A stretch of 33,899 nt of DNA from a virus. The notes beneath the pieces were generated by a model, which saw only the letters and a list, made by a program, of their open reading frames with translations, was not told the origin of the DNA and did not search any database. Positions 1 to 30,724 of this stretch are shown piece after piece. Position 1 is the first letter of the stretch, and each line of letters opens with the position of its first letter. The stretch covers positions 1 to 33,899 of the IMG/VR virus record IMGVR_UViG_3300017719_003080; one strand, 5' to 3'. Made by a program: the position numbers and the translations under genes.

Positions 1-393
1 GACAGTACTTGCTATTACTCTGCTGGGTGTTATTCTGGTGATATATACTATGTGCCTAATGCGTGTTTTGAATGGGTTATCTCAGTAGATCCTTATTGTT
101 GTAATACAACATGGGATGAGGGATGTGATGGATTATATGCATATTGTGCAGATGGTTGGACGGGCCCTACAGATATAGCAATGTTTGAAAGAATGGGTAT
201 TTTACCTTATCCTAATCCATCTACAGGTGTAGTTAATTTTGCATCAAAGATAAATATTAAAGTATACGATTCTGTAGGTAAATTAGTATTAGAATCTAAT
301 AATGTTTTTAGCATAAAACTTAAACAAGGTTTTTATTTAATTGAAATAAATAAAGAAGATTTAAATTTAACAACAAAAATAATTATACAATAA
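1..393 (+). CDS. 3' part of Cys-rich protein with T9SS C-terminal sorting domain
   Basis: The frame is open from the first base, so this is the C-terminal 130 residues of a longer protein; the GTG at 52 is not a believable start. Seen: a Cys-rich segment with DPYCCNTTWDEGC (nt 88-126) and further Cys nearby, then a linker, then a classic type A sorting domain: YPNPSTG (nt 208-228), a V-N-F strand, VYDSVGKLV, IKLKQGFYLIEI and a terminal TTKIIIQ. Known: this fold (TIGR04183/Por_Secre_tail type) routes periplasmic proteins through the type IX secretion system to the outer surface of Bacteroidetes and is then usually cleaved. The Cys motif occurs in secreted bacterial proteins. Inferred: either a tail-fibre or spike end that copies a host surface module, or a secreted cargo protein. 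The N-terminus, and thus any signal peptide, is outside the window. The stop overlaps the next start (TAATG). Confidence 0.85.
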   Translation, partial: DSTCYYSAGCYSGDIYYVPNACFEWVISVDPYCCNTTWDEGCDGLYAYCADGWTGPTDIAMFERMGILPYPNPSTGVVNFASKINIKVYDSVGKLVLESNNVFSIKLKQGFYLIEINKEDLNLTTKIIIQ

Positions 394-581
394 TGGACGA
401 GAATAAAAAACAAATACATTGTGGTAAGCCTAATTGTGAAGCAGAAAATTGTGTTTGCATTACACAAGATCATACTGGTACAGATGAATTTTTTAAAGCT
501 TGGACAGAGTCTTTAGAAAAATTAGATCAACCTACTTGTAATATTACTAATCAAGAAGATTGCGAAAACTGTGGCTCTTAA
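393..581 (+). CDS. Small Cys-rich protein, unknown function
   Basis: This 62-residue acidic protein has eight Cys: a CGKPNCEAENCVC cluster near residues 10-22 and a C-terminal group ending DCENCGS. The spacing suggests metal binding or disulfides, but I recognise no family. Its ATG shares its A with the stop of the T9SS-domain gene (TAATG), so it is probably translated by reinitiation from that message. Its end overlaps the GTG start of the holin gene by 11 nt. Position between a surface-type protein and the holin places it in the late tail/lysis module. Confidence 0.7.
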   Translation: MDENKKQIHCGKPNCEAENCVCITQDHTGTDEFFKAWTESLEKLDQPTCNITNQEDCENCGS

Positions 582-996
582 TAATTTATTAGGCGGTTTG
601 TTTGGCAAGGTACTAGACAACGCAGAAGGCATATTAGATAAAGTTATTACAACTGATAAAGAAAGAGACGAAGCTAAGCTTGCTATACAAAAAGTATTAT
701 TAGACGCAGAGCGTGAGGCATTTGCTAAAGAAGTAGAAGATCGTAAGTCTGCAAGAGAGCTATATAAAGATGATGCTATTATACAAAAAGCATTAGCTAT
801 TTTATTTACTGTTGCATATTTTGGAATTAGTTTTGTAATGTTTAATCATTTTATTTTGGGAGATATTAACTTAGGAGAATTTGAAATTAGTTTTATTTCT
901 ACTATCTTTGGAGCAATGAGTGCTAAAGTTAATACTATTGTAGATTTTTTCTTTGGTGGTAGCTCAAATAAAAATAAAGAAAATAAAGATGGCTAA
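571..996 (+). CDS. Holin, 3TM/GTA-type
   Basis: The 141-residue protein starts with an amphipathic helix (NNLLGGLFGKVLDNAEG), continues with a long charged helix rich in E, K and R (about 28-70, ending RKSARELYKDD), and then has two hydrophobic segments (about 72-95 and 104-128). This matches the plan of the GTA_holin_3TM holins found in many phages and gene transfer agents, which permeabilise the inner membrane at lysis. The start is GTG at 571 inside the end of the preceding gene. It lies about 2.3 kb upstream of the DUF5675 gene, a possible cell-wall partner. The C-terminal tail is polar and Lys/Asn-rich. The topology is clear; the exact family is by resemblance. Confidence 0.75.
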   Translation: MALNNLLGGLFGKVLDNAEGILDKVITTDKERDEAKLAIQKVLLDAEREAFAKEVEDRKSARELYKDDAIIQKALAILFTVAYFGISFVMFNHFILGDINLGEFEISFISTIFGAMSAKVNTIVDFFFGGSSNKNKENKDG

Positions 997-1264
997 GACT
1001 CCTGTATGGCAAAGAAAAGAGGGTAAGAGTCCTTCTGGTGGTTTAAACGCTAAAGGTCGCAGGAGCGCAGGTGTAGGAGCTCCTGTTACTGAAGATAAAC
1101 CTAAAGGTAAAAGAAAAAAAAGAAAAGGTTCTTTTTGTGCTAGAATGAAAGGAATGCGCAAAAGACAAAAACCTAGTAACAATACTGGTAAAGATAGATT
1201 AAGTTTAAGTTTAAAAAAATGGAATTGTCACGATCAAGGTGGTAGGTTTCAACAATTAGATTAA
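989..1264 (+). CDS. Small basic phage protein, DUF6321-like, with QLD tail
   Basis: I use the ATG at 989, which overlaps the holin stop, and not the upstream GTG at 953, whose added residues lie wholly inside the holin gene. The 91-residue product is strongly basic. It carries SPSGGLNAKGR (14-24), SFCARMKGMRK (48-58) and LKKWNC (75-80), a motif set shared by short proteins of marine phages that I believe are called DUF6321. The role is unknown. The C-terminus GGRFQQLD matches the ends of the next genes and of the 59-residue gene at 23492. High charge and the late location suggest a DNA-associated or virion-internal protein, which is inference. Confidence 0.7.
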   Translation: MAKTPVWQRKEGKSPSGGLNAKGRRSAGVGAPVTEDKPKGKRKKRKGSFCARMKGMRKRQKPSNNTGKDRLSLSLKKWNCHDQGGRFQQLD

Positions 1265-1266
1265 TT

Positions 1267-1452
1267 ATGCCAAAAGACGCGTGTTATAATAAAGTAGTAT
1301 CAAGATATGGACCAAAAACATCAGCTTATAGAAGTGGTGCAATGGCTAAATGTCGTAAAGTAGGAGTATCAAATTGGGGAAATAAAAGTAAAAAGAAAGC
1401 TTCTAAAGGAATGAAATATTCTGACGGAGGTATGTATCAACAATTAGATTAA
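1267..1452 (+). CDS. Small basic phage protein with CRKVG motif and QLD tail
   Basis: The 61-residue product begins MPKDACYNKVVSRYG and has a conserved-looking AYRSGAMAKCRKVGVSNWG block (20-38), a pattern I recognise from many small phage proteins near DUF5872, function unknown. The C-terminal part is KGMKYSDGGMYQQLD, nearly the same as in the gene that follows. Start ATG lies two bases after the stop of the preceding gene, in a segment (CAATTAGATTAAT) repeated at the ends of three genes here. Very Lys/Arg-rich. Confidence 0.7.
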   Translation: MPKDACYNKVVSRYGPKTSAYRSGAMAKCRKVGVSNWGNKSKKKASKGMKYSDGGMYQQLD

Positions 1453-1458
1453 TATATC

Positions 1459-1632
1459 ATGAAAAAAAGTTTTAAAAAGCATATGATGTATGCAAAAGAC
1501 GGTAAAAGCGTAATGGCTAATACTATGCAAGATCATTTAGATTTAAAAAAGAAAGGATATGGACACTCTAAGCCTAAAGCTAATAAGGGTATGAAATATA
1601 AAAATGGTGGTCAACTTAGACAATTAGATTAA
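1459..1632 (+). CDS. 57-residue basic protein with KGMKY..GG..QLD tail
   Basis: This short frame starts at ATG 1459, five bases after the preceding stop, and ends three bases before the next ATG, filling the gap exactly. Its N-terminal half (MKKSFKKHMMYAKDGKS) is Lys/Met/His-rich and the middle is DHLDLKKKGYGHS. The C-terminal 15 residues, KGMKYKNGGQLRQLD, repeat the tag of the neighbouring gene. No enzyme motif is visible. The tag conservation and tight packing show it is a real gene; the function is unknown. Confidence 0.7.
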   Translation: MKKSFKKHMMYAKDGKSVMANTMQDHLDLKKKGYGHSKPKANKGMKYKNGGQLRQLD

Positions 1633-1634
1633 TT

Positions 1635-1949
1635 ATGGCGGTTCGTAAAACAGCTAAAGGTGCTGCACTTAAAAGATGGTTTAAGGAAGACTGGAGAACT
1701 CCTAAAGGTAATAAAGATTACAGTAAAGGAGAAAATACTTTTAGACCTACTAAAAAAATATCTAAAGACACTCCTAAAACTTGGAGTCAACTTAGCCCTG
1801 CTGATAAAGCTAAAGCTAAGAAAGAAAAAAATACTAAAGGAAGAGTAAGTAAATACGGACATGGTGGTAGCTATAGAGGTCAAACCGCTAAAAAAAATAT
1901 GTGTTGTTGTGGAGCAAGAATGTCACGATTAAACGAACAGCATGGATAA
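1635..1949 (+). CDS. Basic phage protein, DUF5872-like
   Basis: The 104-residue protein opens KTAKGAALKRWFKEDWRTP and continues with RPTKKISKDTPKTW and SQLSPADKAKAKKEK, the pattern of DUF5872, a small phage and giant-virus protein of unknown role. The C-terminal third differs from the family: KYGHGGSYRGQ, a looser form of the neighbours' KY..GG tag, followed by CCCGARMSRLNEQHG with three consecutive Cys. It overlaps the next start by 8 nt. Fourth member of the basic mini-protein run. Confidence 0.7.
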   Translation: MAVRKTAKGAALKRWFKEDWRTPKGNKDYSKGENTFRPTKKISKDTPKTWSQLSPADKAKAKKEKNTKGRVSKYGHGGSYRGQTAKKNMCCCGARMSRLNEQHG

Positions 1950-2172
1950 AGAATTAGAATTAGCAATGAATAATGCTTATGAAGTTATTATTGATTTTGC
2001 TACTATAGATGAGCTAATAAGCAAACATCCAAATCAACCTATATACTTAGCCTTTGATCCAGAAAAAATGGAGCAAGATGATTATTGGGATAGTACTATT
2101 GATAGTATGATTGAGTACTTTATATTAGCTGAAGAATATGAAAAATGTTCTAAATTAAAAGAATTATTGTAA
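1942..2172 (+). CDS. Small acidic protein, unknown function
   Basis: The 76-residue product is acidic and predicted helical, with DYWDSTIDSMIEYFILAEEYEKCSKLKELL forming the C-terminal helices (split here only by description; Asp/Glu alternate with aromatic residues). No known domain is apparent. It contrasts with the basic proteins upstream, and could pair with them. The stop overlaps the next start as TAATG at 2170-2174. Confidence 0.65.
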   Translation: MDKELELAMNNAYEVIIDFATIDELISKHPNQPIYLAFDPEKMEQDDYWDSTIDSMIEYFILAEEYEKCSKLKELL

Positions 2173-2396
2173 TGGCACAATTAACAACAATAGACGGAGT
2201 TCCTTTGTATAGTACAGTAGCAGAAGCTTTAGAGTATGCTGCACAAAATAACTTAGTGGGTTATCATACTCATTTATACAATGGTGCTATTGGTTATATG
2301 GGTGGTGCTACACATGGGCAAGCATCTACTGCATCATCAGGGTTTCAAGAAGATACTACCATAAATAACACAAATGGTAATATAGGAAATTATTAA
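2172..2396 (+). CDS. Small Gly/Ala-rich protein, probably structural
   Basis: The 74-residue protein contains VPLYSTVAEALEYAAQNN followed by a His/Gly-rich stretch, GYHTHLYNGAIGYMGGATHG, and a polar Thr/Asn-rich C-terminus (TTINNTNGNIGNY). It is translationally coupled to the preceding gene. The composition resembles accessory virion proteins, but I recognise no family. A promoter box follows it before the next gene. Confidence 0.6.
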   Translation: MAQLTTIDGVPLYSTVAEALEYAAQNNLVGYHTHLYNGAIGYMGGATHGQASTASSGFQEDTTINNTNGNIGNY

Positions 2397-2405
2397 TATT
2401 TAAAC

Positions 2406-2413
2406 TATATTTG
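2406..2413 (+). promoter_or_regulatory. Bacteroidota -7 promoter box TATATTTG
   Basis: A perfect TAnnTTTG lies in the 32-bp gap before the gene at 2429, with an A-rich 15-nt leader before its ATG. No clear TTG -33 element stands about 20 bp upstream, so strength is uncertain. Confidence 0.6.
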
Positions 2414-2428
2414 TAAAAAATAAATAAA

Positions 2429-2812
2429 ATGGCACAAAACTATACATTTAACGGATCTTTAACCATGAGTGCTACTTCAGCTACAGGTTATACATCTAGC
2501 ATGAGTGGTACAACTACAATTAATATAACTGGAGTAGATCAAATTGCATCAGGAAGAATTGATTGTGCAACAGATGGTGATGCAACTATTATGGCAGCAC
2601 CTGGAGTTGGTAGAATACTTTATGTTAGAAACATGGACGACACTAACAAAGTTGAAGTTTATGAAGGAGCTTCAAGTGATAATGACTTAATAGGTGTATT
2701 AAAGCCAGGTGAGTTTTTATTTACTATAATTCGTGGAACAGGTACAACTACAGCTAGAGGGCTTGGAGGTACAGTAACAGCAGAATATTTTGCTGTAGAA
2801 ATAGAAGCATAA
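2429..2812 (+). CDS. Phage structural protein (beta-rich, paralogue of next gene)
   Basis: The 127-residue protein is rich in Thr, Ser and Gly at the start (MAQNYTFNGSLTMSATS) and has the core GRILYVRNMDDTNKVEVYEG, then IGVLKPGEFLFTII and a final strand EYFAVEIEA. The layout (variable N-terminus, strand with RN-D-TN, LKPGEF loop) recurs in the following gene, so the two look like diverged copies. Such proteins are typically small virion decoration or fibre-associated components. It has its own candidate promoter at 2406. Confidence 0.6.
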   Translation: MAQNYTFNGSLTMSATSATGYTSSMSGTTTINITGVDQIASGRIDCATDGDATIMAAPGVGRILYVRNMDDTNKVEVYEGASSDNDLIGVLKPGEFLFTIIRGTGTTTARGLGGTVTAEYFAVEIEA

Positions 2813-2829
2813 TTTAACAATATATATAC

Positions 2830-3255
2830 ATGGCAACTCAAGCAACAAGCGTAAGCGTATCAGGTAATTTTACACTAACAGATAGTACTGGATCAGTTGT
2901 ATTTACTTTTAGCCCTAGTTTTACAACATTATCTGACACTACTTCTGGTGCAATAAGTACAGGTGAAATTTTAACTGACGGTACAAGTGATACTACTGTA
3001 AATTTAGCTAGACATCACAAAGATGCATTATTTGCATTTATAAAAAATGTAGATACAGATTATCCTGTAGCCGTAAAACCAGACGGTGATGTTATTGCAA
3101 ATCTAAAACCAGGAGAGTTTATGTTTTCTCCAATTCACATTGATGGAGCAGGTGATGCTTCAAATAATTTAGATTTAGCTGCAACTACAGCTGCGCAAAA
3201 AGTACAATTTTTACTTTGCGATGGCCCTAATACAGGTATTAATACTGACGACTAA
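2830..3255 (+). CDS. Phage structural protein (paralogue of preceding gene)
   Basis: The 141-residue protein starts with an alternating Ser/Thr/Val segment (TSVSVSGNFTLTDSTG), then FAFIKNVDTDYPVAVKPDGD, NLKPGEFMFSPI and QKVQFLLCDG. The order and the LKPGEF block match the protein encoded at 2429. It ends with an acidic NTDD. No signal peptide or enzyme motif. Probably a virion surface or accessory protein. The stop overlaps the DUF5675 start (TAATG at 3253). Confidence 0.6.
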   Translation: MATQATSVSVSGNFTLTDSTGSVVFTFSPSFTTLSDTTSGAISTGEILTDGTSDTTVNLARHHKDALFAFIKNVDTDYPVAVKPDGDVIANLKPGEFMFSPIHIDGAGDASNNLDLAATTAAQKVQFLLCDGPNTGINTDD

Positions 3256-3728
3256 TGCGTTTGGAGGTATTAAGGTTTAGCTCACAAGCAGATTGTACAC
3301 ACGGTCTGCTTTTTGAGCTTACAGATATAGGCAGAAAATTTATTTGTTATACACTAGAAGACGAAGCTAGAGCTTTAAAAGTTAAAGGTGAAACAAGAAT
3401 ACCTGCTGGAACGTATAACATACAACTTAGAAAAGAAGGTGGATTTCATAACAGATATATTAAAAAATACGGTGCTTTTCACATTGGTATGCTTCATATC
3501 GTTGACGTTCCTAACTTTGAGTATATTCTTATACATACTGGAAATACTGATGAGCATACTGCTGGATGTTTAATTGTTGGTGATTCACAAGAAAATAATA
3601 TTATTTTAAAAGATGGGTTTGTAGGTAAAAGTAATAATGCTTATAAACGCATCTATCCTAATATTGCAAATGCAATTAAAAAAGGACAAGAGGTAACTAT
3701 TAAGTATACGGACTATGACCAAATATAG
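3255..3728 (+). CDS. DUF5675 family protein, candidate lysis enzyme
   Basis: The 157-residue protein shows the DUF5675 blocks in order: CYTLEDE (31-37), KGETRIPAGTY (44-54), GGFHNRY (62-68), GMLHI (78-82) and IHTGNTDEHTAGCLIVG (93-109). Function of the family is unproven. The His...Thr-x-Gly-Cys arrangement resembles the L,D-transpeptidase (YkuD) active site, so a cell-wall role is a reasonable inference, helped by the holin encoded 2.3 kb upstream. It has no signal peptide or transmembrane segment. The 3' end overlaps the next gene by 14 nt. Confidence 0.7.
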   Translation: MRLEVLRFSSQADCTHGLLFELTDIGRKFICYTLEDEARALKVKGETRIPAGTYNIQLRKEGGFHNRYIKKYGAFHIGMLHIVDVPNFEYILIHTGNTDEHTAGCLIVGDSQENNIILKDGFVGKSNNAYKRIYPNIANAIKKGQEVTIKYTDYDQI

Positions 3729-4353
3729 ATCTTCTATAAATGAAGCTAAATCTAAAAAAACTATTACTTCAACTCAAAAAAAAGAGTTAGAAAAAAAATC
3801 TACAGATCAATTTTTACAACAAAGTTTTCAGCCTAATTTAAGCTCTAAACCTTATAGACCTACTTCAAGTGTATATACACCTAGACCTACATCTACAAAT
3901 GTTACGACTGTAGCGCAACAAGAAATAGAAGACAGTGATATATCAGTTGTAAAAAATTTACCATTTTTAACTAATACAAGTTCTGATAGATATATTAAAA
4001 TATTTGATAGTAGTGTAAATGCAAAATTACAAGACGTTTTAATTTTAAATAGAAGTACAACAGAATTAGCCAGAGTAAATATATTACTATCTACTTTTGA
4101 TTTAGATAAAGAATACGGAGTTAATAGAAATCAACTTTTAGAAAACAATCCAAATACTGTATATCTATTACATCAATATGATTTAAGAGCTAATACCACC
4201 TTATCTTCAGATGAAGTAACGAGTAATCAAGCATCATTAAGAAATGCTGCTCATTTAGGAGATGTTAAAATCGCATCCAAAAAGAAAACTATATATTTGT
4301 ATGCACACAAACCAACTGATATTGGCATTGTGGATCTTACTATTATAAAATAA
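3715..4353 (+). CDS. Hypothetical protein, probably virion-associated
   Basis: The 212-residue product has a long polar N-terminus rich in Lys, Ser, Thr, Gln and Pro (1-70, e.g. KPYRPTSSVYTPRPTST), looking disordered, then a folded part with ISVVKNLPFLTNTSSDRYI, LILNRSTTELARVNILLS and a C-terminal TIYLYAHKPTDIGIVDLTI. No family recognised. It overlaps the DUF5675 gene and is coupled to the next one by TAATG. Likely structural by location only. Confidence 0.6.
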   Translation: MTKYRSSINEAKSKKTITSTQKKELEKKSTDQFLQQSFQPNLSSKPYRPTSSVYTPRPTSTNVTTVAQQEIEDSDISVVKNLPFLTNTSSDRYIKIFDSSVNAKLQDVLILNRSTTELARVNILLSTFDLDKEYGVNRNQLLENNPNTVYLLHQYDLRANTTLSSDEVTSNQASLRNAAHLGDVKIASKKKTIYLYAHKPTDIGIVDLTIIK

Positions 4354-4610
4354 TGGAAAACAAATTACCTATCTGGATGACAGATTGGACTCTAGAACAT
4401 CCTAAGAAAAAAAATCAAGTTATAGTAAAAGATGTTATCTGTAAAGGTTGGACATCTAAGGACATTATTAACAATGAAATGTTAATAAAAAAAGTGTTAA
4501 GTAAGCTAGGAAATAAGAAAAAGAATTTAATATTGGTACCGATTCATGTTAAGCTCAAATCACAACATGGATATGGCCCTAAATATGAAAACGAAAAATT
4601 ATTTTCTTAA
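4353..4610 (+). CDS. Hypothetical basic protein
   Basis: The 85-residue protein carries IWMTDWTLEHPKKKNQVIV near the start and KGWTSKDIINNEMLIKKVL, with a Lys-rich loop before a hydrophobic strand LILVPIHVKL. No recognised domain. Both ends show TAATG overlaps (4351-4355 and 4608-4612), so it is translated as a unit with the flanking genes, perhaps with the phosphoesterase downstream. Confidence 0.6.
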   Translation: MENKLPIWMTDWTLEHPKKKNQVIVKDVICKGWTSKDIINNEMLIKKVLSKLGNKKKNLILVPIHVKLKSQHGYGPKYENEKLFS

Positions 4611-5899
4611 TGAAAAAAGTTGATACAGATAAAATAAAAGAATATTTATTAGCTAATCCAGAATTTTTAAATTCTAAATACGCTAATACAGCTAAATTAT
4701 TTGACACTAATTACGAAGTAATAAGGAGTTTAGCTAGAGGATTAAGGGATAAAATTAATCCGCAACATAGCAAAGAAACTACAAATTTTGAAGAAAATAA
4801 AGATGGTGCTGTAGTAACCTGTGAGGATAGTAAAAGGGTTAAGTCGTTAGATGACCTTTTAAAGGCTTGTAATGTAAATTTAAATGTTTGGGAAGTAGAT
4901 AAGTACGACATAGGAACTTATGAAGTTACAGGCTTTGATAAAGCTAAACGACCAATAACAATACCAATGTTTAGGACAAAAGCTTGGTTAAAGCGTATTG
5001 ATCCTACAATGAATATACAAAAGATAAGAGAGGAGCTGGTTCAAGACTTAGTTCCTCTTTTTGATTCAGTACCTAGAGAAATAATTAGACCATCTAGTTA
5101 TAAAGATGATGATCCACACCTATTAGAAATTAATGCTTGCGACCTACATTTAGGTAAGATAGGGATAGAAGGAGATAGGTATAGTTTAGATATAGCTAGA
5201 AACAGAATGTTAAAAGCTTTGGAGCATCTAGTTAAACGTGCAAGTGGATTTTATATAGATAAAATATTGTTTGTAGTAGGTAATGATTTTTTAAACTCTG
5301 ATGGAGACTTTCCTATTGCTAGTACAACTAAGGGTACGCCACAATCAAATACTGATTCACATATAGAAATGTATAGAAGCGGTAGAAAGTTGTTAGTAGA
5401 ATGTATTAATATGTTATTGGATGTTAGTGAAGTTCATGTAGTAGTAATACCAGGTAATCATGATAAAGAATCAATGATGCATATTGGAGATGCGCTAGAA
5501 GTCTGTTACGAAAATAATGGTAATGTAACAGTAGATAACTCTGCATCTATGATGAAAGCGTACCAATATGGTACATGTTTAATTATAAATGATCATGGTG
5601 ATGGAGCTAAAATAAATAATTTACCTGGAATTGTTTCTCAAAGATATAGAGATATATGGAGTAGTGTAAGGCACGTAGAAGTGCATAGAGGGCATTTACA
5701 CACTAATAAAGCATATAAGATGCAAGCTGTAGAAGAATTAAATGGACTGACTGTAAGAAATTTATCATCTATGACGGCTACAGACGAATGGCATGATACC
5801 AAAGGATTTGTTGGAAATACAAAGAGAGCCTCTGCATTTGTATGGAGTAAGTTCAATGGTGTTCAGGCTAAGTTAAACTATAATGTTGAGGTTAACTAG
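4610..5899 (+). CDS. Calcineurin-like metallophosphoesterase with N-terminal helical domain
   Basis: The 429-residue protein has an N-terminal helical, HTH-like part (6-48) and a C-terminal phosphoesterase domain. The metal-binding motifs are visible in order: D178-x-H180 (CDLHLGK), VVGNDF (222-227, the GD-type motif with Asn-Asp), PGNHDKES (281-288), INDHGDG (326-332) and RGHLH (360-364). Known relatives hydrolyse phosphodiesters, including SbcD/Mre11 nucleases; phage versions occur near structural or recombination genes. The substrate is unknown; DNA-end trimming is possible. It is the last rightward gene, only 17 bp from the convergent leftward gene end at 5917. Confidence 0.85.
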   Translation: MKKVDTDKIKEYLLANPEFLNSKYANTAKLFDTNYEVIRSLARGLRDKINPQHSKETTNFEENKDGAVVTCEDSKRVKSLDDLLKACNVNLNVWEVDKYDIGTYEVTGFDKAKRPITIPMFRTKAWLKRIDPTMNIQKIREELVQDLVPLFDSVPREIIRPSSYKDDDPHLLEINACDLHLGKIGIEGDRYSLDIARNRMLKALEHLVKRASGFYIDKILFVVGNDFLNSDGDFPIASTTKGTPQSNTDSHIEMYRSGRKLLVECINMLLDVSEVHVVVIPGNHDKESMMHIGDALEVCYENNGNVTVDNSASMMKAYQYGTCLIINDHGDGAKINNLPGIVSQRYRDIWSSVRHVEVHRGHLHTNKAYKMQAVEELNGLTVRNLSSMTATDEWHDTKGFVGNTKRASAFVWSKFNGVQAKLNYNVEVN

Positions 5900-5916
5900 G
5901 CCAAACTACAATTATA

Positions 5917-6099
5917 TTATTCTCCAATTTCTGGTTCAATTACATTATATATTGCAGGATCAACATCTTTGATTTTCCTATAAACTTTTCTAGCTTCACG
6001 CTTTGCGTTTTCTAATGTTGTTTTATTTATATCAATACCAGTTGCGCTATTAATAATTAAATGTGCTTGTTTAAGCAACTTGTGCGTTTCTTTTTTCAT
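5917..6099 (-). CDS. Small basic helical protein, unknown
   Basis: The 60-residue product is helical and Lys-rich (THKLLKQAHLIINSATGID, then ENAKREARKVYRKIKDVDP). No family recognised. It is the distal gene of the leftward region, overlapping the upstream gene by 29 nt, and faces the phosphoesterase gene end-to-end with 17 bp between stops and no evident terminator hairpin. Confidence 0.55.
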   Translation of the reverse strand: MKKETHKLLKQAHLIINSATGIDINKTTLENAKREARKVYRKIKDVDPAIYNVIEPEIGE

Positions 6100-6265
6100 T
6101 TTCTTGTTTTAATAATTTTTTAGCTTTAGCTCCATATCTGTCACGATTGGAACGATCTCGTTTTACCTGTAATTTATCACTTTTAAATCCAAAGTACATT
6201 TCAAACATATCGTAATTTTTATAATTAGATATAGTTTTTGTTATTTTATCTTGAGGATGGTTCAT
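6071..6265 (-). CDS. Small basic protein, unknown
   Basis: The 64-residue protein has YKNYDMFEMYFGFKSDKL followed by a highly charged tail (KRDRSNRDRYGAKAKKLL). Net positive, possibly nucleic-acid binding; no family recognised. Upstream lies a 192-bp gap with three hairpins, so this gene has a structured leader if transcribed from the right. Confidence 0.55.
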   Translation of the reverse strand: MNHPQDKITKTISNYKNYDMFEMYFGFKSDKLQVKRDRSNRDRYGAKAKKLLKQENEKRNAQVA

Positions 6266-6292
6266 ATTGTTTTCATAGTATGTTTAGTTATT

Positions 6293-6444
6293 GCCCAGGG
6301 ATTACTCCCTAGGCTTTAACTTCCAAATTGAACTAATTCTAAAATAAATAATCTGAAAAAAAGTCATTTAATAGAATTATGTCCACACTATCAAACCGAT
6401 GATAGTGTTAAGAACGTCAGGAGTTAAAGTGATCCAGTCACTTT
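6293..6444. other. Three-hairpin intergenic region, candidate structured RNA
   Basis: The 192-bp gap 6266-6457 holds three separate inverted repeats: GCC(C)AGGGA-TTAC-TCCCT(A)GGC at 6293-6314; ACACTATC with GATAGTGT around an 8-nt loop at 6385-6408; AAAGTGA-TCCAG-TCACTTT at 6426-6444. The latter two have perfect 8- and 7-bp stems. None is followed by a clean T-run on either strand, so plain termination is doubtful. No tRNA fold was found. It could be a leader RNA for the gene at 6071, an sRNA or protein-binding site. Confidence 0.55.
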
Positions 6445-6457
6445 GCTAATATAACAA

Positions 6458-6562
6458 TTACTTAAATATATTGTATAAAATACTCAACATAATTGTTAAA
6501 AATCCAAAGTACATAAACAAATATTCTAGTACTAAAGATAGTTTTGGTTTTCTTGGTTTCAT
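6458..6562 (-). CDS. 34-residue single-pass membrane peptide
   Basis: A short frame starts at the ATG whose A is the last base of the radical SAM stop (TAATG on the minus strand). The product begins with a basic MKPRKPK and then has one hydrophobic segment (LVLEYLFMYFGFLTIMLSIL), positive-inside orientation. The exact coupling and the membrane-like composition support a real gene. The role is unknown; candidates are a membrane toxin-like, exclusion or lysis-modulating peptide. Confidence 0.6.
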   Translation of the reverse strand: MKPRKPKLSLVLEYLFMYFGFLTIMLSILYNIFK

Positions 6563-7416
6563 TAAAATATATATCTTATCGTGTTCCAGGGTATAATTTT
6601 GTCGTGCAAATCTACAAAATCTTTAATAAACTCACGCTTTAAAGTATGTTTATACCTAATGTTTTCACCACCATATTGTGATGTTTTAGTTTCCTGTATT
6701 TCTGGTTTCCATAAGTGTTCTTCAGTATCAATTAATCTAGATAGATTAACAATATGTTTATTAGCATTATGCGTTAAGAATATAACTTCAGCTTTAACAA
6801 TGTCTTTGTATTCTACATAGTTATCTAACATAATAAAAAGATCTTCGTAATCTTTAAGCCAATTGTCATATACAATAACAGGACTAAAGTTTACGTGTAC
6901 ATCATAACCTGCATCAATAAAGGCATCAATAGCTTTAATTCTATCAATTATTTTAGATGTATTAGGCTCATGTATATCTGCCATTTTTTGTGGCATTAGA
7001 CTGAACCTTATGCGTATTTTTCCTTCAGGATCAAATGTAGTTAAATACGGATTTACATACTTAGTTGCAAAGCTACCCATAGCTATAGGATGATTTTTGA
7101 AGAAATCAAATATATCTTCCCAGTCATGATACTTAGCATGCAAAGCAAAGTCTTCATTACAACTTATATCATATGTTATATGTTCAGGATGTGTTTGATT
7201 TGGCTTATCTACCAAAGCAAAATAAGCATGATTATTTATACTTGTAAGTATATCGTTAGAGTTTGTAGCAATACTCAATCCTGTAGGCTTGTGTCTTTTC
7301 ATATAGCAATAGCTACAATCATACAAGCAACCGTGTCCAAAACTAGGACTAATAAAATCAGTTGATCTACCAGACGTTCTGATTTTAAAAGTTTTCCTAG
7401 TGTCTTTAGTTATCAT
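6562..7416 (-). CDS. Radical SAM protein, spore photoproduct lyase-like
   Basis: The 284-residue protein has the radical SAM cluster motif GCLYDCSYCYMKRH, with C30, C34 and C37 in C-x3-C-x2-C spacing for a [4Fe-4S] cluster that cleaves S-adenosylmethionine. Later blocks include GSFATKYVNPYL, the strand IRIRFSLMPQKMADIHEP and DAGYDVHVNFSPVIVYDNW, the plan of the SplB family. Known SplB repairs the UV spore photoproduct in DNA; phage relatives are uncharacterised. UV repair in surface waters is plausible but a nucleotide-modifying role is equally open. It is coupled on both sides: ATGA overlap with the upstream 55-residue HTH gene and TAATG with the downstream membrane peptide. Confidence 0.8.
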   Translation of the reverse strand: MITKDTRKTFKIRTSGRSTDFISPSFGHGCLYDCSYCYMKRHKPTGLSIATNSNDILTSINNHAYFALVDKPNQTHPEHITYDISCNEDFALHAKYHDWEDIFDFFKNHPIAMGSFATKYVNPYLTTFDPEGKIRIRFSLMPQKMADIHEPNTSKIIDRIKAIDAFIDAGYDVHVNFSPVIVYDNWLKDYEDLFIMLDNYVEYKDIVKAEVIFLTHNANKHIVNLSRLIDTEEHLWKPEIQETKTSQYGGENIRYKHTLKREFIKDFVDLHDKIIPWNTIRYIF

Positions 7417-11381: not shown

Positions 11382-12695
11382 CTAAAAATCTAAAGTATTC
11401 TCTCTAAATTTAGTCAATTCGCTGATAAATTTAAGGTTAACAGTACCTACACCAATGTTACGTCCTTTGGCAAATATAATCTGCGCAAGACCTTCTGTAG
11501 ACTCACCGTTTTCATCGGTATTTATACCGTAATACTCAGGCCTGTATACTAACGCAACAACGTCAGCAGCCTGTTCTATTTCGCCTGATTCTCTAAGATC
11601 AGATAAAGTAGGTTTACTTTCAGCTCTGTAACCAACACCTCTGTTTAGTTGCGATAACGCAACAACAGTAATGTTTAGTTCTTTTGCCAAGTTTTTAAGT
11701 GCTCTAGCAACTTTGGAGACTTCTTGTTCTCTAGTTCCTTTTGATCCTGTACTTGCTGTGACAAGTTGAAGGTAGTCAACAAACACAAGCTTAATACCGC
11801 AGCTATGTACATACTGTCTAGTTTTAGATAATAAATAATTCAAAGACGTTTGTTTACACTCGTCAATGTATATGGATTTATCCATAATGTTACTAGCCGT
11901 GTTTTGGATTCTTTTTAAATCCTCATCATTAAGCTGTCCATTCTGTATCCACCTAATAGGTATTTCAGACTCAAGCGCTACAAGACGCATTATAAGCTGA
12001 TTAACAGACATTTCGTAACTAAATATTAATGCTGGTACTCCAGCTAAATTTACTGCGTTATAGGCAAGATTTAAAGCTAAGCTTGTTTTACCCATTGATG
12101 ACGCTGCACCAATTATAACAAGATCTGTTTCTTGCCAACCGCCAGTAAATTCGTCAAGACTATTAAATCCTGTGGACACACCAACAATACCATCTGTTGC
12201 TATTCTCTTGTCAATATCTTTAAGAAAATATTTCATTTGACTATGTATGTCAGCTATGTCACCATCTTCAACAACCATTAGCTTAGCATTAATCTTATTC
12301 ATATAAGATATAATTTCATCTGCTTCTTCGTTGTTGTGAAACTTATTACTTGCTTCAAGTATAAGCGTATGCAAACTTCTTTTTTTACTTAGCTCATGCA
12401 ATTCATTTACGCAAGACTTAATAGAACTTACATAGTGCTGTTCACTTGTAAGTATACTAGTAAGTCTAACTCTTTGATTGCTATCACAAGACAAAGCAGC
12501 AGACATAGAAACTAAATCTATGTCCTTTTGCTCTGCTTGCATAACCAAAAACTTTTCATATATGCTTTTATGAAACTGATCCTTAAATAAATTAGGGCTT
12601 AATTTCTGTGCATTTTCATAGTAAAGTTCAGGATGAGTTATAAGTTTACCTAAAAGAGCTGCTTCCAACTCGTATGTTATCAATTCATCGTGCAT
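11382..12695 (-). CDS. dnaB: Replicative DNA helicase, DnaB family
   Basis: The 437-residue protein has the DnaB N-terminal helical domain (EAALLGKLITHPELY at 11-25) and RecA-like core: Walker A GAASSMGKT (196-204), FSYEMS (225-230), Walker B LVFVDYLQL (303-311), VVALSQLNRGV (344-354) and the arginine-finger region SDLRESGEIEQAADVVALV (365-383). DnaB hexamers unwind DNA 5' to 3' at forks. Length is normal for the family. No primase, loader or polymerase gene is seen, so host proteins are probably used. It is the first gene of the replication run in leftward order. Confidence 0.95.
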   Translation of the reverse strand: MHDELITYELEAALLGKLITHPELYYENAQKLSPNLFKDQFHKSIYEKFLVMQAEQKDIDLVSMSAALSCDSNQRVRLTSILTSEQHYVSSIKSCVNELHELSKKRSLHTLILEASNKFHNNEEADEIISYMNKINAKLMVVEDGDIADIHSQMKYFLKDIDKRIATDGIVGVSTGFNSLDEFTGGWQETDLVIIGAASSMGKTSLALNLAYNAVNLAGVPALIFSYEMSVNQLIMRLVALESEIPIRWIQNGQLNDEDLKRIQNTASNIMDKSIYIDECKQTSLNYLLSKTRQYVHSCGIKLVFVDYLQLVTASTGSKGTREQEVSKVARALKNLAKELNITVVALSQLNRGVGYRAESKPTLSDLRESGEIEQAADVVALVYRPEYYGINTDENGESTEGLAQIIFAKGRNIGVGTVNLKFISELTKFRENTLDF

Positions 12696-14804: not shown

Positions 14805-15679
14805 TATACTTCTTGTAAATTAATTAACATTCCTTTTTCCATTAACTTATCTTCAATGGTTTTAAAAGCTATCAAGTTCTTTTTATAACCAGAACCTGTC
14901 ATAAGATTTTCTTCACCTTTATTATCAATGTGATTCGTATAATAGGTTACAGCGTTAAATAGTCCCCAAAGGGTATTACCTTTTGCTTCAAGTTCGTGTG
15001 ACAAAGCTTTGCCAAAGTCACTAATTTGGTTTTTCTTACGTGTAGAATTGTCTGATGCTTTACTATTCATATCTACTTTGAATATTTTATTCATTACAGA
15101 CTCTATCATAGTTTGATCAACAGAAACTCTGTTCATAGCTTTATATGTAAGCATAAGATTGTCGTCAAGAACAAGAGCTTTTTCAAACTCGTCTACAGCA
15201 AACTGTAATCTTTGCGATGCACTCATAGTATGTCTAAACTTAGATAAGTCTTTCATAGCCATGTGAAAAGTGTTAGAACATGATATAACTGTGTTGGTAG
15301 AACCAAACCCAATAGAATGTGAGCCATCGTGTGAGTTAAGACAAGTAATGTGACGTTTTAAAGTGTCACCATTAATGTTGTAATCTTCTAATGACAATTG
15401 GTAGTAGACTTTTTGTCCATTTATTCTACCCATAGCATCACCTTTGATGTTACCACCAAACCTGTCTTGTATTCTAACCATAATTTCAGCTAGTTCTTCG
15501 TTCTGCATAGGAACGTATCTTTCGCCTACTGTACTTAACCAGGCGTTGTTGTCAGATCTAAATAGACCATAACTTTGTGTTTGTTTTCCATCTTGTGTAA
15601 ACAATGGTTCTTTTTGTACAGACCAAGCTGTGTTAGTATTGTACAATGCGTCAAAAATCTTTTCGTTTTTTAAATCCAT
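14804..15679 (-). CDS. DUF932 (phage/plasmid-like TIGR03299) protein
   Basis: The 291-residue protein carries blocks of DUF932: NTAWSVQKEPLFTQDG, WLSTVGERYVPMQNEELAEI, GQKVYYQLSL, LNSHDGSHSIGFGSTNTVIS, CSNTFHMAM and later GKALSHELEAKGNTLWGLFN with a final EENLMTGSGYKKN. This family is widespread on phages and plasmids; its role is unknown, though a link with recombination or defence islands has been suggested. Length is normal. The leader before 15679 has CATAATTGTTTATT (plus strand), also seen at 19353. Confidence 0.75.
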   Translation of the reverse strand: MDLKNEKIFDALYNTNTAWSVQKEPLFTQDGKQTQSYGLFRSDNNAWLSTVGERYVPMQNEELAEIMVRIQDRFGGNIKGDAMGRINGQKVYYQLSLEDYNINGDTLKRHITCLNSHDGSHSIGFGSTNTVISCSNTFHMAMKDLSKFRHTMSASQRLQFAVDEFEKALVLDDNLMLTYKAMNRVSVDQTMIESVMNKIFKVDMNSKASDNSTRKKNQISDFGKALSHELEAKGNTLWGLFNAVTYYTNHIDNKGEENLMTGSGYKKNLIAFKTIEDKLMEKGMLINLQEV

Positions 15680-25710: not shown

Positions 25711-28008
25711 ATGTATAATAGTACAAAGTCAAAATTTCCAGCACAATATGTTACAGAGTCTGAAAAGACAGATGAATGGTGTGAATCATGGATTAATGCT
25801 ATAATTGGTTATATGTCTTATAGTGACTCACCTCATAAGAGTTCTAGAGTAAATGATATACAAAACTACAATATATATAATGGTGAAATAGAATTAGATG
25901 ATTTTAAATATATAACTGAACAGTATGGAATGTCATATCCAGCTAGATTAGTTAACTACCCTATTATCTCACCAAAAATAGATTTACTTGTAGGAGAAGA
26001 TCTTAGAAGACCAATAGACGTTAAGGTAAGCACTACAAACAAAGAGGCTGTATTAAGAAAGGAAGATGTAAAGGTTAGTCTTATAATGAAAGAGCTAACT
26101 GAAGAAATACATAAAGACTTTTTTTCACAAACTGGAATAGAAGTTCCTTCTGTTACTGACATGGAGTTACCTGAAGATATAGATGTATACATGAAATACA
26201 ACTATAGAGAAATGGTTGAAGAAACTGCACAAGATGGTTTAGAATACTTAATACAAAAATATAATTACGTAGATTTATTTAAAGAAGGCTTTAGAGATTT
26301 ATTAGTTACTGGTAAAGAATTTTTTAGAATTTACGATCATAATGGAGATCCATTTGTTAGAAGAGTAGATCCTAGAAGTGTTATATATGAAACAAGTACT
26401 ACATCAGATTACTTAGATGATTCAGCTTGGGTAGGTGAAGAAAGATATTTATCTTATACTGAAATACTAGACGAGTACAGAGATGAGCTTACGCAAGAGC
26501 ATATGCAAGAGTTATCTGCTATGTATCAAATTGGAAGCTATGATGATTTAGCTAATTATAATTCATCATTTGATTGGATAGACTACCAGGAGGGACAAGA
26601 AGTAAAAATAAGAGTAGTATCTATAGAGTGGAAATCAATTAAAACTTTAAAGTTTAAGGTATCTGAAAATAAGTATAATCCAGAAAGACCTTTTATGAAA
26701 CAAGTTTCTGATGATTATAAAGCAAAGAAAAAAGACAATATTAAGACTAAATATGTAGATGATATTTGGGAAGCTACTAAAATTGGTGGTAAGATTTTAG
26801 TTCAAGCTAGACGTAGGCCTAATCAAATAAGATCAGTAGATGATGCTGGTACTACACAACTATCTTACGTAGGATGTATTAGAAATAATACTACTGGTAG
26901 ATCTGTATCTATGGTAGATTTACTAAAGAATATACAGATGTTGTATAACGTAGTTATGTACCAAATTGAATTAGCGTTAGCTCGTTCTGGTGGTAAAGCT
27001 GTAGTATATGATGTTTCACAATTACCTACAAATTTAGGTATGGATATGCAAAGCGTATTGTATCATTTAAAAACAGATGGTATTATTCCAATTAACTCTA
27101 AAGACGAAGGAGGACAGGTCAATAGCTTTAATCAGTTTAGCCAAGTAGATTTTACTCTTAGTCAATCTGTACAACAGCTTATCAATCTAAAAATGATGCT
27201 TGAGCAAACGGCTGGACAAATATCTGGTGTATCACCTCAACGTGAAGGAGCTGTTGGACAATATGAATATGTAGGAAACGTACAACGTAGTGTAATACAA
27301 TCTGCTACAATTACAGAAAGCTTATTCTACTCACACGCAATGGTTAAGAAGCGTATATTCGAAAGAGTTACTAATCTTATGAAAGTTTGTTGGGCTGGAG
27401 GTAAAAAAGCTTCTTATATCTTAGGTGATGGTGCATTTAAATTTTTAAGTGTTATGCCTGATGTAGCTTTACAAGATTATGGTATATTTATTGGAGACTC
27501 TGGTAAAGATGATGCATTACGTCAGTCATTACAACAAATAGCGCAATCTGCTGTACAAGGTGGTCAGGTTACTTTATTAGATGTTATTAAAGTATTTAAA
27601 GCTGATACATTTACTGAAGCTGAACATATACTTGAAAGAGCTATGGATGAAATGAAAGCTAATGAAGCTCAACAACAAGAACAGCAACAAGCAATGATGC
27701 AAGCACAAGCTGAACAGGCTCAAGCAGCATTTGAACAACAAGTACAATTAGAGCAAGTTAAAAACGAGGCTAAGATACAAGTTGCACAAATACAATCTGA
27801 AACAGATCTTAAAATTGCAGATATGAAATCTGATGATGCAAGAGAAATGTCAGATGTTGCACATCAAGTTAAAAACAAGCAATTATTTTTAAATAAAAGA
27901 TTAGAACAAGAACAAAAACTAGAAGATAAAGGCCAGGATGCTGAAGCAAATCAACCTGTTACGGAAGACCGTAAAAAACAAATACAAGATATAATAAAAA
28001 ATTCTTAG
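25711..28008 (+). CDS. Portal protein
   Basis: The 765-residue protein sits in the canonical portal place between terminase and scaffold. It has SPKIDLLVGEDLRRPIDV early, VRRVDPRSVIYETSTTSDYL, WVGEERYLSYTEILDEY, a wing-like core with SVQQLINLKMMLEQTAGQIS and GVSPQREGAVGQYEYVGNV, and a Gln/Ala-rich C-terminal coiled coil (about 660-745). The length is large, resembling P22- and crAss-type portals with a long C-terminal barrel. Dodecameric ring at the capsid vertex is assumed from the family. A promoter box starts at the base after its stop. Confidence 0.85.
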   Translation: MYNSTKSKFPAQYVTESEKTDEWCESWINAIIGYMSYSDSPHKSSRVNDIQNYNIYNGEIELDDFKYITEQYGMSYPARLVNYPIISPKIDLLVGEDLRRPIDVKVSTTNKEAVLRKEDVKVSLIMKELTEEIHKDFFSQTGIEVPSVTDMELPEDIDVYMKYNYREMVEETAQDGLEYLIQKYNYVDLFKEGFRDLLVTGKEFFRIYDHNGDPFVRRVDPRSVIYETSTTSDYLDDSAWVGEERYLSYTEILDEYRDELTQEHMQELSAMYQIGSYDDLANYNSSFDWIDYQEGQEVKIRVVSIEWKSIKTLKFKVSENKYNPERPFMKQVSDDYKAKKKDNIKTKYVDDIWEATKIGGKILVQARRRPNQIRSVDDAGTTQLSYVGCIRNNTTGRSVSMVDLLKNIQMLYNVVMYQIELALARSGGKAVVYDVSQLPTNLGMDMQSVLYHLKTDGIIPINSKDEGGQVNSFNQFSQVDFTLSQSVQQLINLKMMLEQTAGQISGVSPQREGAVGQYEYVGNVQRSVIQSATITESLFYSHAMVKKRIFERVTNLMKVCWAGGKKASYILGDGAFKFLSVMPDVALQDYGIFIGDSGKDDALRQSLQQIAQSAVQGGQVTLLDVIKVFKADTFTEAEHILERAMDEMKANEAQQQEQQQAMMQAQAEQAQAAFEQQVQLEQVKNEAKIQVAQIQSETDLKIADMKSDDAREMSDVAHQVKNKQLFLNKRLEQEQKLEDKGQDAEANQPVTEDRKKQIQDIIKNS

Positions 28009-29188: not shown

Positions 29189-30724
29189 ATGGCAAAATTA
29201 TATACTGGAACTTTCGGTTCTGGAACAAGCCCAGAGAATGCTTTGAATACAGCGCTTATGCAATACCCAGAGATTGCGAAGACGTTAATTCAACAGTATC
29301 CTCGTTATTCAGCGACTTATCTTTTAGAAAGAACTGGTCGTTATGCAAGTGAAAAAGTATTAGGAGACAATTCTTTCGAATGGAAAGTAATGGGACGTTA
29401 CAACGCTCCTTCTTTTAGTACAGGATTCTTTAAAGGTGTATCTGCGGATACTGCTTTTACTTCTTCACCAACAGCTTCAACAGGTGTTATTCTTGATGCT
29501 GGAGATGCAGATGGTGATGTATTTGAAATCCTTATGGATGGAACTGCTTCTAGCAGAACTCCAGATTTCTTGAACAAATTTGATATGGTAAGATTCCAAT
29601 CTGGAGCTACTGCAATCGTTGTTGAAGATCCAAGAAGCAATGACTCAGGTCAAGGTGCTGCTGGAGATAGAGTTGTAAAATTCGAAATGGTTGGAGCTTT
29701 AGCTCAGCCTTTATTATCAACTGACGTTGCTGATGAAGCTATTATTGCTTCTATTGGATCTGCTTTCCCTAATGGTTCTAACGGATCTGATGTAGGTGAA
29801 AACTATGCTTATCCTTCTACTTACAAGAACTACCTTACTACAATGCGTAAGAAATGTTCTGTAACTGGTAAAGATATGACAGACGTTACTTGGATTGAGA
29901 ACAATGGTCACAGACTATGGTACTTCTCTAAAGAGCAAATGATGATGGATGAGTACATGTATCAGCAAGAGCTACAAAGATGGTATGGACGTTCTTCTGT
30001 AACTGATACTACTGTTCCACGTCCTGGTGCAATTACTTCTTCTGCTTTAGGTACTTCTGGTACACAAGCTTCAAGTATTGTAACTGGTGATGGACTACTT
30101 GCTCAAATTGATTCTTCTAACCAAGCTTCTTATACATTAGGTGCTTTAACTGAAGACATCATTACTGAATTTTTAGCTAAGCTTTCTTTGAATGCTACTA
30201 ACGCTGAAGGTAACGAGTGGGTTGTATTTACTGGTACTGAAGGTAGATTAGCTTTCCACAAAGCAATGAAAGACTTATTGATTGCTCCTTCTGGATCTTT
30301 CACAGGTGGTTCAATGTCTGGTGTAAGCGGTGATGTATCTTTAGGAGGTAACTTTGTATCTTACGAAGCATTAGGAAATAAGCTTACAATGGCTTACTGT
30401 CCTGTGTTTGATGATTCAAACGTTCACAGTTCTACTTCAGGTACTAACGCATTTGGAGATAACAGATTAAAAGAATCTGCTAAGATGGTATTCCTTGACT
30501 TCGGTAAGACTTCAGGTATATCTAACATTGAATTGATTACTAAAGGTGCTGAAGGTGCTAACCGTAGTTTCACTAAGAAATACGTTGCTGGTATGATCAA
30601 CCCTTACGATCAAAAATCAATGATGGCTGCTAACGCTGATGACAAGTTTGAGTGTCACGTTATGTCTGAATCTGGAATCATAGTTCGTAACCCATTATCT
30701 TGTGGAATTTTATCCGCATCGTAA
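29189..30724 (+). CDS. Major capsid protein
   Basis: The 511-residue protein follows the scaffold and begins MAKLYTGTFGSGTSPENALN, then QYPRYSATYLLERTGRYASE; later RKKCSVTGKDMTDVTWIENN, YQQELQRWYGRSS, and near the end GANRSFTKKYVAGMINPYD. No membrane or enzyme motif. Codon use differs from neighbours: more C-ending and preferred GCT, TCT, GGT codons, as expected of the most abundant virion protein. The preceding 98-bp leader is A-rich with a hairpin. Assignment rests on place, size and codon bias; the fold is assumed HK97-like. Confidence 0.85.
   Translation: MAKLYTGTFGSGTSPENALNTALMQYPEIAKTLIQQYPRYSATYLLERTGRYASEKVLGDNSFEWKVMGRYNAPSFSTGFFKGVSADTAFTSSPTASTGVILDAGDADGDVFEILMDGTASSRTPDFLNKFDMVRFQSGATAIVVEDPRSNDSGQGAAGDRVVKFEMVGALAQPLLSTDVADEAIIASIGSAFPNGSNGSDVGENYAYPSTYKNYLTTMRKKCSVTGKDMTDVTWIENNGHRLWYFSKEQMMMDEYMYQQELQRWYGRSSVTDTTVPRPGAITSSALGTSGTQASSIVTGDGLLAQIDSSNQASYTLGALTEDIITEFLAKLSLNATNAEGNEWVVFTGTEGRLAFHKAMKDLLIAPSGSFTGGSMSGVSGDVSLGGNFVSYEALGNKLTMAYCPVFDDSNVHSSTSGTNAFGDNRLKESAKMVFLDFGKTSGISNIELITKGAEGANRSFTKKYVAGMINPYDQKSMMAANADDKFECHVMSESGIIVRNPLSCGILSAS

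Follow-up and report, generated by a model that had tools for sequence, protein, structure and literature searches.

The lambdoid PA-2 porin, lambda Lom and T5 Llp are products of phage genes that alter the host outer membrane, and we know of no use of the type IX secretion system (T9SS) by any of the three. In Bacteroidota, a protein counts as T9SS cargo if it has both a Sec signal peptide and a C-terminal domain (CTD) (PMC12618676), and the Bacteroidetes Q-rule, a glutamine (Q) at position +1, marks Sec export without the Q itself being a sorting signal (PMC5837995). Type A cargo such as RgpB and NucA combines a Sec signal peptide, in most cases followed by Q at +1, with a modular extracellular body and a beta-sandwich CTD that bears YPNP...G motifs. 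Phages have been linked to this system twice: a 2019 study of gut phages found that, in cluster 2, ORFs with T9SS domains lie beside BACON ORFs (PMC6949934), and Bellas et al. (2020) reported that three genes of one phage, Cryophage, carry T9SS tags; these encode an endoglucanase, a GH39 protein and a PA14 protein, and superinfection exclusion is among the roles suggested for them (PMC7468147). In Flavobacterium, the gene of an outer-membrane beta-barrel, the PorP/SprF shuttle, is linked to the gene of a type B cargo (PMC12618676).

Here we describe a family of phage proteins that ends in a type A sorting domain and is encoded with three conserved partners, namely a predicted barrel, a one-TM coiled-coil protein and a thioredoxin-like protein. 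Its members share with host type A cargo the features listed above and differ in being phage-encoded and part of this cassette. Like Cryophage, the family has phage-encoded type A sorting domains that vary among phage variants, and it differs from Cryophage in that a single repeat-protein family with conserved partners extends over about 180 viral contigs (PMC7468147). With gut phage cluster 2 it shares a T9SS domain on phage ORFs near head genes, whereas that study concerns gut phages and BACON repeats, and its passages on these ORFs mention no such cassette (PMC6949934). A search of the open-access literature, which misses most subscription journals, returned no report of the repeat family or the cassette, and the four-gene set appears to be undescribed so far. 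The initial annotation of this DNA knew of no established phage use of T9SS tags, which stands with respect to experiment and not with respect to prediction; since such tags were predicted in 2019 and 2020 (PMC6949934; PMC7468147), the principle is not new, and the cassette is. Where phage use of the T9SS had rested on two isolated notes, there is now a conserved and testable four-gene cassette in many marine phages.

The window, by which we mean the whole stretch of DNA that was analysed, is a linear virus record of 33.9 kb. Its genes include one at 29189-30724 for a crAss-type capsid protein (PF23898, 132.8 bits) and one at 25711-28008 for a P22-like portal, which agrees with the initial annotation that a phage genome carries the tag. 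The 3' end of the tagged gene occupies positions 1..393 on the plus strand as an open frame of 130 codons plus a stop codon, and because this frame runs in from the contig edge, its true start lies beyond the window. Residues 70-130 (208..390, +) form the type A C-terminal sorting domain that had been recognised from its motifs. Both curated models that were proposed as a check match above cut-off at the extreme C-terminus: TIGR04183 scores 36.7-38 bits (cut-off 23) and is matched through its end, and PF18962 scores 37.6 bits (cut-off 27). A sorting-domain HMM built only from host sequences gave the window peptide 65.3 bits, compared with 7.0 bits for the best of 2000 shuffles, in a test that is mildly circular because similarity to the window had guided the choice of six of the nine seeds. 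Judging by dN/dS values of 0.25-0.36, the sorting domain is under purifying selection. The sorting domain is preceded by a Cys-rich module (1..186, +; CYYSAGC..VDPYCCNTTWDEGC..YCADGW), delimited by family conservation, whose Cys, Trp and Asp columns are invariant or nearly so across 57 sequences.

The window fragment has 11 viral relatives, seven of them full-length, and the full-length proteins are about 65-76% identical to it across the same 130 aa. Encoded on other marine crAss-like phage contigs and mostly 600-800 aa long, they consist, from N to C terminus, of a signal peptide, two beta domains, roughly 8-12 Cys-rich repeats with the consensus GC(T/M)D..NYN..AN.DDGSC, the Cys-rich module and the sorting domain. 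Based on these relatives, the missing 5' part of the window gene would encode the signal peptide, the two beta domains and the GCxD repeats. The signal peptides of the relatives end in a site of the A-x-A/G/S type that is followed by Q at +1, and this Q is invariant (57/57 relatives), as in the Bacteroidetes Q-rule. When judged by our own strict signal-peptide-plus-Q rule, 68 of 78 relatives have a Sec signal peptide. Among the non-redundant members, TIGR04183 matches 45/57 and PF18962 matches 43/57, which leaves 12/57 without a TIGR04183 match. AlphaFold2, run on 57 sequences of the family, returned a pLDDT of 77 and a pTM of 0.33, and at this pTM the packing of the domains in the model is not to be trusted. 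In the model of one member (L014), the C-terminal beta strands form an Ig-like beta-sandwich whose best match is 8glk_D (TMt 0.72, 2.3 A, 27% identity), which is the NucA substrate inside a T9SS translocon complex, with further matches to 8gl8_D and the RgpB CTD. The family profile also finds 8glj and 8glk by sequence, and gingipain CTDs weakly.

Because the family has both a Sec signal peptide and a CTD, as the definition of T9SS cargo requires, export by the host to the surface is to be expected, and we consider it very probable that the tagged protein reaches the surface of the infected cell. Of the three options raised by the initial annotation, the evidence speaks for a cargo exported to the cell surface.

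The tagged gene is the last of a co-directional set that encodes, in order, the barrel, the one-TM coiled-coil protein, the thioredoxin-like protein and the tagged protein, and that sits after tail-fibre-like genes and the gene of a giant protein. Among the 68 loci with enough upstream sequence, the barrel is present at 60, the TM protein at 64, the thioredoxin-like protein at 66 and all three at 57; in some loci the barrel gene is instead downstream of the tagged gene. The genes lie on one strand, and the start and stop codons of neighbours mostly overlap or abut. As the contig ends before these genes, the three upstream partners of the window phage are predicted from its relatives. Within the cassette, the thioredoxin-like protein is predicted by the rule to be exported and has no CXXC motif. 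Of the three exported cassette proteins, 207/221 carry a signal peptide plus Q by the strict rule, compared with 5/1095 of the other ORFs of at least 100 aa at the same loci. The sole other recurrent protein of this kind among the 1095 ORFs has about 136 aa and Q at +1 (AQ..GDWYIGTGDIANTAWTEWSIAP), and its gene follows the tagged gene at a distance of 10-14 genes in four loci (L061, L082, L085 and L086). A search with all four cassette proteins against the PADLOC defence families gave no match. Relatives of the barrel are encoded on at least 586 viral stretches, a wider spread than that of the tagged gene; at 72 of 80 barrel loci the tagged family is present, and of the other eight, at least four end too soon downstream to show whether the tagged gene follows.

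We also compared how the parts of the tagged protein vary. The body and its two export labels, signal peptide and sorting domain, have separate histories, as exchangeable tags would: pairs whose bodies are 83-90% identical have sorting domains with identities as low as 24-32%, and in a reverse pair the bodies are 69% and the sorting domains 92% identical. In partial Mantel analyses, in which shared ancestry is a confounder, barrel distance correlated with the body (r 0.63, partial 0.58) and, above permutations, with the CTD (r 0.37, partial 0.21), and the thioredoxin-like protein gave a partial r of 0.52 with the body and 0.29 with the sorting domain. Because shared ancestry inflates correlations with the body, the tracking of the body by both partners is only suggestive, as is the resulting picture in which the cassette and the body would be the working part and the two ends exchangeable addresses. 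Such swapping of export labels would offer a natural data set for T9SS cargo choice. In eight members (L034, L068, L069, L070, L082, L086, L087 and L090) the type A domain is replaced by an alternative C-terminal tail, ..VTDLLGRPSKIIKNKLLLFIYSDGSVEKKFIK. This tail is probably another export tail, since in some Bacteroidota genomes it stands at the end of several unrelated proteins, with up to eight matches per genome, and it perhaps represents an undescribed class of T9SS tail. The barrel was also considered as a PorP/SprF shuttle, and we rejected this candidate: in contrast to the Flavobacterium pairs (PMC12618676), the phage cargo domain is of type A and the barrel matched no Pfam family, PorP_SprF included, at E values up to 1, and it seems to follow the body more closely than it does the sorting domain, a comparison that shared ancestry confounds.

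Taken together, the best overall explanation, which we think likely, is that the tagged protein is a surface protein, made by a crAss-like phage that infects marine Bacteroidota and sent out by the host's own export route. The gene would be read in the direction of the virion genes, as the last of the four-gene cassette, and its position behind the tail-fibre-like genes suggests late expression. The signal peptide would direct the protein to Sec, after which signal peptidase I would expose the glutamine and the host would cyclise it. The host T9SS would then recognise the C-terminal domain, move the body, which is probably stabilised by disulphides, across the outer membrane and anchor or release it. 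At the surface, the tagged protein would act with the co-encoded predicted outer-membrane beta-barrel, and the exported thioredoxin-like and one-TM coiled-coil proteins would act on the periplasmic side. The sequences themselves show, in relatives, the tags at both ends and the cassette, together with its conservation and the swapping of the tags; that the protein is in fact exported, that the host T9SS carries it, that the genes are expressed together and what this brings about are inferences. Regarding the end effect, surface remodelling that blocks the adsorption of further phages or of released progeny is plausible rather than probable; superinfection exclusion or receptor masking is our lead guess, ahead of uptake or adhesion and then lysis, and the sequence itself does not favour exclusion over adhesion, nutrient binding or lysis. 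It is possible, and somewhat doubtful, that a large marine crAss-like clade carries a dedicated surface-display machine made of all four proteins and exchanges only the export labels, signal peptide and sorting domain, so as to fit the export machinery of each host. The two address labels and the conserved set suggest that viruses of ocean Bacteroidota may redecorate the exterior of the infected cell. If export is true, phages would put their own proteins outside Bacteroidota cells through a secretion system specific to this phylum, and this would bear on superinfection, host-cell aggregation and virus-host dynamics in the ocean.

The fold of the barrel bears on an alternative use of the exported set, in which a porin-like barrel and a surface binder would capture a substrate or attach the cell. 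The 345-aa protein is a predicted outer-membrane beta-barrel: its model, of moderate confidence (pLDDT 73.5), comprises a signal peptide and 14 beta strands. The best PDB matches of this model are outer-membrane porins, including the oligosaccharide porins NanC and KdgM, and the repeat and beta domains of the tagged protein resemble the bodies of host secreted enzymes, both of which are consistent with uptake or adhesion. However, the resemblance to these porins is weak (TMt about 0.55, 9-10% identity), and searches with the tagged family matched no catalytic or carbohydrate-binding family, so we regard uptake or adhesion as unlikely. A search by sequence for solved relatives of the barrel found none, and its best viral match is an unnamed viral protein of similar size.

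The neighbourhood downstream of the tagged gene raises the less probable alternative that the cassette is an outer-membrane disruption module for lysis, with the TM protein resembling an i-spanin and the barrel and surface protein weakening the membrane. In the window, a 62-aa Cys-containing ORF (393..581, +) overlaps the stop codon of the tagged gene, and similar short ORFs follow that gene at 17 loci. A holin-like gene (571..996, +) comes after this ORF, and a DUF5675 gene lies at 3255..3728 (+; PF18925, 98.3 bits), with its cluster downstream of the tagged gene at 56 loci. The initial annotation had placed the tagged gene next to a holin; a holin-like gene is indeed downstream, but the 62-aa ORF lies between the two and the family matches are weak (phrog_1544, E 9e-4, and for a relative in L005, PHROG holin 3427 at 2.7e-4, with GTA_holin_3TM at E 0.006 under cut-off). 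These neighbours, and the layout of the TM protein (91 aa, one TM, coiled coil), which to us recalls i-spanins, speak for lysis. Yet the holin-like cluster is found within 6 kb downstream of the tagged gene in just 33/77 loci, the PHROGs matched by the TM protein are solely families without an assigned function, and cargo with a T9SS tag would arrive on the outer face, which has no need of a spanin. We therefore find a lysis module quite improbable.

Location and repeats are the grounds for a further reading, similar to the tail-fibre option of the initial annotation, in which the tagged protein belongs to the virion, as a tail fibre or decoration, and its end imitates a fold of the host surface, being a beta-sandwich useful for host contact. 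The gene does come after the tail-fibre-like and giant-protein genes, and GCxD-like repeats occur in a Synechococcus phage S-CAM3 protein called 'virion structural protein' in one record. In contrast, export signals are present at both ends of the protein, with Q-rule Sec signal peptides in nearly all members, two cassette partners have signal peptides as well, and we consider the Cys content, at least 35 residues in members counted, unfit for assembly in the cytoplasm. A virion protein is thus more improbable still, and the signal peptides of the full-length relatives disfavour a tail fibre in particular. The S-CAM3 protein (about 36.6-37.0 kb; NC_031906.1, KU686197-9) is about 37% identical to the family repeats. 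It came to light in tblastn searches of INPHARED, in which matches of the full tagged protein were confined to repeat regions and came from cyanophages and from one single-cell marine virus, and the window fragment, the barrel and the thioredoxin-like protein gave no match. No cultured relative of the cassette turned up among 50,697 phage records, and TIGR04183 had no match in cultured Fipvunavirus (FpV4, FPSV-S29) or in three gut crAss genomes.

A profile of full-length members found about 180 IMG/VR viral contigs, of which the best 80 were taken without dereplication (about 40-100% identity), and a single contig among 84,980 GTDB bacterial and archaeal genomes. This sole cellular match, JAAXIF010000025.1 (L091), is a 63-kb contig in a 'Sphingobacteriales' MAG; as genes for the phage barrel and the giant phage protein are on it too, it is probably a phage contig binned into a bacterial genome. 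The full architecture, sought in 150 genomes of one family and in the sampled cellular genomes, was found only on this probable phage contig. By this distribution, the tagged-protein family is viral. In the class of the L091 MAG, the window sorting domain matches host T9SS domains in 138/395 genomes, the strongest at 40-49% identity, and the N-terminal beta domain of the phage protein is also present in host metalloprotease-like proteins, immediately ahead of their own CTD (L174, L175). With both domains occurring in hosts, the phage gene is a composite of modules characteristic of host T9SS cargo, and by now it forms a separate viral family. A recently captured host gene or an assembly chimera at the contig end, both foreseen by the initial annotation and prompted by the position of the domain at the contig edge and by the same domain type in host genomes, can be dismissed almost entirely, as the independent contig L007 crosses the junction with 92% identity over window 101-6469 and the viral contigs stand against a single cellular-genome contig that itself has phage cassette genes.

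Farther into the window, several genes lie on the minus strand, opposite to the tagged gene. These encode a DnaB-like helicase (11385-12695; 287 bits), a DUF932 protein (14807-15679; 93.5 bits) and a radical SAM protein similar to spore photoproduct lyase (6562-7416; PF20903, 84.6 bits), the last being a DNA-repair-like gene of these phages. An ORF in another of the contigs (L089) has an N-terminal sequence very similar to that of the radical SAM protein.
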